Below, piece by piece: positions 34,189 to 34,915 of a stretch of 35,239 nt of DNA (within the stretch, counting starts at the first letter, position 1; each line of letters begins with the position of its first letter). The stretch is from IMG/VR virus record IMGVR_UViG_3300032401_000037, positions 1-35,239 of that record, one strand, 5' to 3'. A program made the position numbers and the translations under genes. Below the pieces are notes generated by a model. That model was not told where the DNA came from. It did no database searches and saw nothing but the letters and a program-made list of their open reading frames with translations. The DNA comes from a virus.

Positions 34189-34405
34189 GCAGACGGTGAA
34201 CGGACGACGGGCGGGCCGGTATCTCACGGGCGGCGTCCACCACAGCGGTCATGGCCCGGCACCTGGCGGCGCATTGGACATGCTCCGCATGAAGCATGGC
34301 AATCACGCCTTCCAACTCCCGCACCTTAGCCTCCCGGTTGGACGCCTCGGCCTCGGCCTTTTGTGCCCGGTCTAAAAGTCCGGCAATGGTCATTCTTGCG
34401 TCCAT
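34097..34405 (-). CDS. 102-residue coiled-coil early protein
   Basis: This is the last gene of the leftward operon. It begins [20 protein letters not shown] and has a coiled coil ([20 protein letters not shown]) followed by a Cys/Ala-rich helix. The ATG at 34405 overlaps the stop of the (GX)n gene (TGATG), with GGGAG six bases upstream supplied by the edge of the repeat array. Its 3' end overlaps the convergent rightward gene by 92 bases. The function is unknown. Confidence 0.65.
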
Positions 34406-34626
34406 CACGTACTCCCGTCCCCGTACCCGAACCCGTACCCTCCCCCGTTCCCGTACCCGTACCCGAACCCGTTCCCGTTCCCGTCCCCGTCCTCGTACCC
34501 TCCCCCGTACCCGTCCCCGTCCCCGTACCCGTCCCCGTACCCGTCCCCGTCCCCGTCCCCGTCCCCGTCCCCGTCCCCGTTCCCGTTCCCGGCCCCGTTC
34601 GCATTACCTCTGCCATCGTTTTCCAT
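34405..34626 (-). CDS. (GX)n glycine-dipeptide protein 2
   Basis: The 73-residue protein starts [11 protein letters not shown], the same leader as the gene just upstream, and then alternates Gly with Asp, Asn, Tyr, Phe and Glu (for example [17 protein letters not shown]). Its ATG lies one base after the upstream stop. Its own stop overlaps the next ATG (TGATG). Every Gly codon in the repeats is GGG and every X codon ends in C apart from a few irregular units. The function is unknown. The sequence resembles silk-like or glycine-rich structural repeats in pattern only. Confidence 0.5.
34409..34600. repeat. CCCGNN hexanucleotide array, block 1
   Basis: About 32 tandem hexamers of the form CCCGTC, CCCGTA, CCCGTT, CCCGAA and CCCGGC occupy this block, with a run of seven consecutive GTCCCC-type units around 34540-34575. 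A few irregular units (CCCTCC, GTCCTC) keep the six-base period. On the minus strand this is GGG every six bases. All six reading frames are open because the unit cannot make a stop codon. Confidence 0.9.
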
Positions 34627-34631
34627 CTCAC
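34601..34631. repeat. Leader unit between repeat blocks
   Basis: GCATTACCTCTGCCATCGTT and the adjoining TTCCATCTCACG form a diverged copy of the unit found at 17-46 and 34890-34919. On the minus strand it encodes the start of a (GX)n protein ([10 protein letters not shown]) preceded by the previous stop codon. It shows that leader plus array was duplicated as a cassette. Confidence 0.8.
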
Positions 34632-34915
34632 GTACCCCCGTACCCGTACCCGTCCCCGGACCCGGCCCCGTCCCCGTACCCGGCCCCGGACCCGTACCCG
34701 TACCCGTCCCCGCACCCGAACCCGTTCCCGTCCCCGAACCCGGACCCGTACCCGTTCCCGTACCCGTCCCCGTCCCCGAACCCGGACCCGTACCCGTACC
34801 CGTACCCGTACCCGTACCCGGACCCGGCCCCGTCCCCGTCCCCGTACCCGTACCCGGCCCCGGACCCGTACCCGTCCCCGCACCCGTTGGCATTACCTCT
34901 GCCATCGTTTTCCAT
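34628..34915 (-). CDS. (GX)n glycine-dipeptide protein 1, silk-like
   Basis: The 95-residue protein starts [11 protein letters not shown] and then alternates Gly with Tyr, Asp, Ser, Ala, Phe, Asn or Cys for about 40 dipeptides, for example [19 protein letters not shown]. Its ATG overlaps the DUF6948 stop (TGATG), so it is translationally coupled. The three leader copies in the window differ at third codon positions in this frame (GAT/GAC, GCC/GCT/GCG). The same changes would destroy the start or alter residues in the alternative Thr-Gly frame, which favours this frame. The function is unknown. No signal peptide is seen. Confidence 0.55.
34632..34888. repeat. CCCGNN hexanucleotide array, block 2
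   Basis: About 42 hexamers with more diverse units (CCCGTA, CCCGTC, CCCGGA, CCCGGC, CCCGAA, CCCGTT, CCCGCA). The CCCG core is constant and the two following bases vary. Higher-order mosaics are visible, such as repeated GGCCCCGGACCCGTACCCGT-like blocks. It abuts the leader unit and the DUF6948 gene. The contig's first 12 bases belong to the same array. Confidence 0.9.

Follow-up and report, generated by a model that had tools for sequence, protein, structure and literature searches.

A coupled pair of early phage genes for a predicted Sm-like protein and a hypervariable Gly-X polypeptide

Near one end of a 35,239-base virus contig (IMGVR_UViG_3300032401_000037; this whole stretch is called the window below) lies an array of six-base units, which raises the question whether such an array is a gene at all and, if so, with what its product works. 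A sequence-only reading had proposed that two consecutive leftward genes share a leader and then alternate glycine with other residues. Reading of the minus strand confirmed this arrangement, which is far beyond chance (Table 1). In both proteins, here termed GX proteins, the X position is occupied foremost by Tyr and Asp, followed by Asn, Ser, Ala, Phe, and Cys.

Genes and genomic setting of the module

The proposed coupling of start to stop codons was found throughout the locus. In the sequence TGATG, the ATG of gene A shares bases with the TGA (34917..34915) that ends the DUF6948 gene, the ATG of gene B lies one base past the TGA of gene A, and the TGA of gene B is in turn overlapped by the ATG (34405) of a 102-aa gene, for which a family search returned nothing above the cut-off. 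Defence-system models had no match, and nothing useful matched in NCBIfam.

Table 1. Features of the module and its surroundings in the window
Feature	Position	Strand	Remarks
Third GX allele, start	1..42	-	14 letters readable; truncated by contig end
DUF6948 gene, second copy or allele	42..323	-	At the other contig end
Single-strand DNA binding protein gene	1403..1894	-	phrog_6015, E 4e-18; early, same strand
Sak4-like ssDNA annealing protein gene	1907..2884	-	phrog_124, E 2.5e-39; early, same strand
Next coupled gene	34097..34405	-	102 aa, MDARMTIAG...
GX gene B	34405..34626	-	73 aa; leader as in gene A; tandem copy
Hexanucleotide tandem array, genes A and B	34414..34887	-	Tandem Repeats Finder, period 6, 77.8 copies
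GX gene A	34628..34915	-	95 aa: 11-letter leader, (GX)n, GT
DUF6948 gene	34915..35196	-	93 aa; partner of the GX genes, located upstream; Sm-like fold predicted

Between the two ends of the window (1-366 and 34874-35239), 8 mismatches leave an identity of 97.8%. A circular map that was broken inside the variable array and is represented by two alleles would fit this, as would two copies of the module. In the leader copy at the contig start, the GAT and GCC codons of gene A are replaced by GAC and GCT, in agreement with the third-position differences that had been pointed out between leader copies. Upstream of the DUF6948 copy at this end, the stretch 578-1071 is partly duplicated, with 91-94% identity between 698-768 and 1001-1071 and between 578-647 and 782-851.

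The module belongs to the early region and lies among genes for DNA replication and recombination. Its same-strand neighbours encode DNA helicases, annealing proteins of the Sak4/RecT/Bet type, exonucleases, and DNA methyltransferases; in Koroua they are an exonuclease, Erf, and SSB, and in PhiPLPE RecE and Bet. This setting bears on a possible function in the virion, where an Sm-like ring would plug the neck and the GX protein would form a gel-like plug or a fibre. A precedent is T4, which recruits the Hfq hexamer of its host during neck assembly to serve as a second gate for the genome (PMC12270204). However, structural genes are missing among the neighbours listed above, and those of the window are encoded on the strand opposite to the module. 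A virion role appears quite improbable.

Coding and turnover of the Gly-X array

Any hexamer array yields alternating residues automatically, so that coding needed to be tested separately. Among 57 arrays with enough DNA, a stop codon occurs no more than five codons past the array end in 45 cases in the GX frame, compared to 6 and 11 cases for the remaining frames, and the median distance from array end to stop is 1 codon in the GX frame versus 29 and 17 codons. The entropy at the six hexamer positions of nine old, codon-diverse arrays is 0.17, 0.25, 1.34, 1.55, 1.54, and 1.35 bits. The GG of the Gly codon is thus held (0.17 and 0.25 bits) while both wobble bases drift (1.34 and 1.35 bits), a codon-position result that carries some bias because the arrays were picked by Gly content. 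Alanine at X is only one change away from Ser or Asp, yet it is depleted (24 observed versus 197.5 expected from base frequencies); some Ala is present in the window's own arrays. The GX genes measure 162, 204, 222, 252, 258, or 270 nt in eight Pectobacterium/Dickeya phages and 210 or 216 nt in 11 Rheinheimera phages, and all these natural length variants are multiples of six and in frame. Most GX genes begin no more than a few bases away from the upstream stop, which is weak evidence alone, as a nearby start is often expected by chance. The DNA units differ between phages while the amino acid pattern stays the same, and no relative with a frame-killing frameshift, which would have spoken against coding, was seen. 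The (Gly-X)n polypeptide is under selection to stay in frame. Frame-specific stops, held Gly bases, and whole-hexamer variants, together with the linkage to DUF6948 described below (110/115 loci), bear out the earlier claim of real coding, and we regard it as nearly certain that the GX frame codes and that the two-gene module is real. A Pfam match of GX proteins to TrAA12 was taken as a low-complexity artefact, though three of them pass the TrAA12 cut-off.

The same observations bear on the view that the array acts as a DNA-level element, such as a recombination or packaging signal, and that the open frame is incidental. Almost uniform synonymous positions in young arrays, and Gly codons in the window that are nearly always GGG, would be in line with such an element. 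It would not account for the frame specificity of the stops, the invariant Gly bases next to free wobble positions, the scarcity of Ala, or an amino acid pattern that persists across phages despite different DNA units, and is very improbable. Elsewhere in the genome of the window, Gly is mostly encoded by GGC, and GGG makes up 24% of the Gly codons. GGG units in a GGC-dominated genome point to expansion from a founder unit, by slippage rather than codon choice; codon optimisation as a source of the uniform codons in the window was rejected on this ground.

The GX array is hypervariable and its 6-nt units turn over fast. The Pectobacterium phages Ymer and Amona agree at every base of the 1098 nt that precede the array and of the 480 nt that follow it, yet the arrays themselves measure 192 and 174 nt, and the order of units differs while the ends are conserved. 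The NNC codons at X would suit a targeted A-to-N diversifier such as a DGR, but the arrays seem to differ by hexamers that were gained or lost as a whole, which makes such a diversifier less likely. The paper on the Ymer genus does not mention glycine, and a search of the Barbavirus genome and transcriptome papers for the gene pair gp017/gp018 or for repeats gave no result. Locus L001 (3950-5074) and the window are 99.2% identical over 374 nt comprising the DUF6948 gene and the leader, whereas their flanks are unrelated, the similarity breaking off about 40 nt ahead of the ATG. Either the module was exchanged as a mobile cassette or one contig is chimeric.

Repeats may also arise in assembly. 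Contigs end within 700 nt past the Sm-like (DUF6948) gene at 18 of 71 viral loci, and the window ends there too, as an assembly artefact might lead one to expect. In complete genomes of cultured phages, however, the arrays are intact and in frame, which leaves an artefact with a negligible probability. Assemblies break in the array, which is therefore under-represented.

Pairing with DUF6948 and predicted fold of the partner

Loci were collected with the window protein and its relatives (80 from IMG/VR and 5 genome loci), and a GX array follows the DUF6948 gene at 110 of 115 non-redundant loci. The five exceptions include a locus with a short array (L016), one that ends within the array (L013), and one whose array lies upstream (L027); L045, outside the 115, has a degenerate array only. 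In the reverse direction, arrays were retrieved solely by their DNA pattern, and at least 400 nt of upstream sequence were required in a set of 55. A gene of the DUF6948 superfamily is located directly upstream of 54 of these 55 arrays. With a second, Asn-containing pattern, such a gene was found upstream of 47 of 54 arrays (48 when L317, inspected by eye, is counted), so that both patterns together give about 102/109. A diverged partner branch without a Pfam hit, A5, was identified by hhalign as a homologue of DUF6948 (probability 96%, E 2e-9) and has GX arrays at 83 of 95 genes. Matches to phrog_18306 place GX at 49-134 and DUF6948 at 153-233, which hints at a GX-DUF6948 fusion in that family; no in-frame Sm-GX fusion was seen among the loci. 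The pairing of DUF6948 and GX genes is nearly obligatory. The module is spread over hundreds of contigs from phages. Several phages in culture also carry it, and their hosts are Pectobacterium, Rheinheimera, Rhodobacter, Iodobacter, and Vibrio. The array noticed in the sequence-only reading is a real member of this module, but that reading missed that a predicted Sm-like protein makes up the other half of the pair, which is conserved. The exact leader of the window had no match in IMG/VR, because leaders are lineage-specific.

Several loci add observations of their own. Tandem runs of GX genes at L310, L311, and L321 have the common leader MSSPLSR and the tail GRYPYNLIIKN. The GX protein UOF79295.1 (MW202613; L171 2728-3042) is annotated as 'lamprin', evidently a low-complexity misannotation, and an unannotated GX frame lies between phiPLPE_84 and phiPLPE_83 of Iodobacter phage PhiPLPE (L164, about 1190-1450). 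At L155, a poly-Ala/Tyr repeat protein upstream of the DUF6948 gene is a further low-complexity phage protein.

The DUF6948 protein of the window matches Pfam family PF22253 over residues 4-85 (E 1.8e-26; 92.5 bits versus a gathering cut-off of 27). Models of both partner branches by AlphaFold (AF2) have high pLDDT (96.2 for the DUF6948 branch and 97.3 for the diverged branch). Among the VIA matches listed, 50/50 for the DUF6948 branch and nearly all for the diverged branch are Sm/LSm proteins, with best Z of 8.1 and 9.3, respectively, although Z of 8-9 is modest for a small barrel. Foldseek likewise retrieved Sm/LSm proteins almost exclusively for both branches, at E-values of only about 3e-3 to 2e-2, and its top match for the diverged branch is the solved Sm-like protein 3BY7, at about 18% identity. 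Sequence comparison gave a different picture: Pfam LSM did not match the DUF6948 protein at E <= 1, only DUF6948 being found, and no PDB chain matched a 102-sequence DUF6948 profile at E <= 10. By eye, the DUF6948 consensus G..V.G.L.......L..A resembles Sm1, but the D..N pair of loop 3, the canonical RNA contact, is not evident. Based on the models, it is highly probable that the partner adopts an Sm-like fold, a strongly bent five-stranded barrel. Since the E-values are modest, sequence matches are lacking, and the RNA-contact residues are not evident, the claim concerns the fold and not membership in the LSm sequence family or RNA binding. The literature searched contains no paper on DUF6948, which agrees with the earlier remark that no such family had been described.

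Possible functions and comparison with known systems

Across the module, X is almost only Tyr, Ser, or Asp, with Asn, Phe, His, Ala, and Cys also occurring, and the two GX proteins of the window have net charges of about -10 and -14. With an abundance of Tyr, Ser, and Asp and hardly any Lys or Arg, such Gly-X chains should be disordered and acidic, and the composition suggests that a disordered acidic polymer is at least as likely as a silk sheet. At some loci the array is not the entire protein. In L098, L122, L124, L137, and L157 it is fused to a conserved C-terminal domain (...GTLHATLLPPKWKGERWWIVALTGEV...) without a Pfam match, and in L132 (5999-6481) and L168 it is followed by another C-terminal domain (VYCVDGVATLIDSVHRN.../VYIIDDIPTIIKHVHDN...), which also occurs in a gut phage record and whose L132 copy had no match in Pfam, PHROG, or NCBIfam.

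The two translationally coupled genes form a conserved early-region module, and as best explanation we propose that their products meet on nucleic acid. The Sm-like protein would assemble into a nucleic acid-binding ring, and the intrinsically disordered, acidic, Tyr-rich GX polypeptide would act as partner of this ring in trans, where it may tune RNA binding or promote the release of RNA, or concentrate rings together with nucleic acid in a condensate. Only the composition and length of the polypeptide would then matter, so that the exact array would be free to change. The simplest reading is that phages supply the Gly-rich tail of an Hfq-type protein as a separate, coupled protein. In A. baumannii Hfq, RNA binding is altered by GGFGGQ repeats and an acidic tip (PMC11617691). 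Because such Gly-rich and acidic tails affect RNA binding by Hfq, an analogous role is proposed for GX. That the Sm-like protein and the GX polypeptide cooperate on nucleic acid has, in our estimate, a little less than an even chance. The fuller version is more tentative: the module may possibly be a two-part ribonucleoprotein system of phages, in which an Sm-like ring and an interchangeable, hypervariable Gly-Tyr/Ser/Asp tail or condensate former act on RNA or DNA while the phage takes over its host or replicates. In one subgroup, the GX protein's own C-terminal folded domain could be the working part, which counts against this explanation.

The extra C-terminal domains would rather be in line with GX as a hypervariable effector that acts by itself, such as a decoy or a protein that binds components of the host or of rival phages, with the Sm-like protein controlling only the GX mRNA. 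Extreme turnover of an array with conserved ends also fits an effector, as do the tandem GX families with common leader and tail (the window, L001, and L310/L311/L321). However, a near-obligatory pairing in both directions would not be expected of a free-standing protein, and the low-complexity composition is constant, unlike a variable binding surface, so that we consider an effector unlikely. Alternatively, the Sm-like protein might block the transcription termination factor Rho in the host in the manner of Rof, an Sm-like inhibitor of Rho (PMC11018626), and GX would be an accessory. The position of the module in the early region is compatible with this idea, but Rof acts without a GX partner, and a Rof-like function seems improbable.

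Whichever function applies, an unannotated repeat has become a conserved, testable two-gene phage module, a pair unnamed until now, and DUF6948 gains a predicted fold. The module hints at how a virus may pair a low-complexity protein with an Sm-like partner. Phages with identical flanks and different arrays supply natural variants, from which one can read what selection preserves in a disordered protein.

Among known systems, Acinetobacter Hfq resembles the module in that an Sm core goes together with a Gly-rich, aromatic, and acidic disordered segment (PMC11617691). The Hfq tail belongs to the same chain as the core (in cis) and is conserved from strain to strain, whereas that of the module would be a separate, coupled protein of hypervariable G-[YSD] units. 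The closest database families, PF22253, of which the window protein is a member, and phrog_18306, which spans GX-like and DUF6948 parts, are without described function, and neither records a GX partner or an Sm-like fold. The Sm-like fold predicted for the diverged partner branch is shared with 3BY7 at the low identity given above; we take 3BY7 to be a cyanophage-derived pentamer and know of no GX partner for it. Silk fibroin and other (GX)n structural proteins also have Gly at every second position, but X in the module is rich in Tyr, Ser, and Asp, acidic, and poor in Ala. LSm4- and FUS-type proteins likewise combine an Sm-fold or RNA-binding protein with a low-complexity disordered chain; they differ from the module in being eukaryotic and fused, and in having no hexamer microsatellite.
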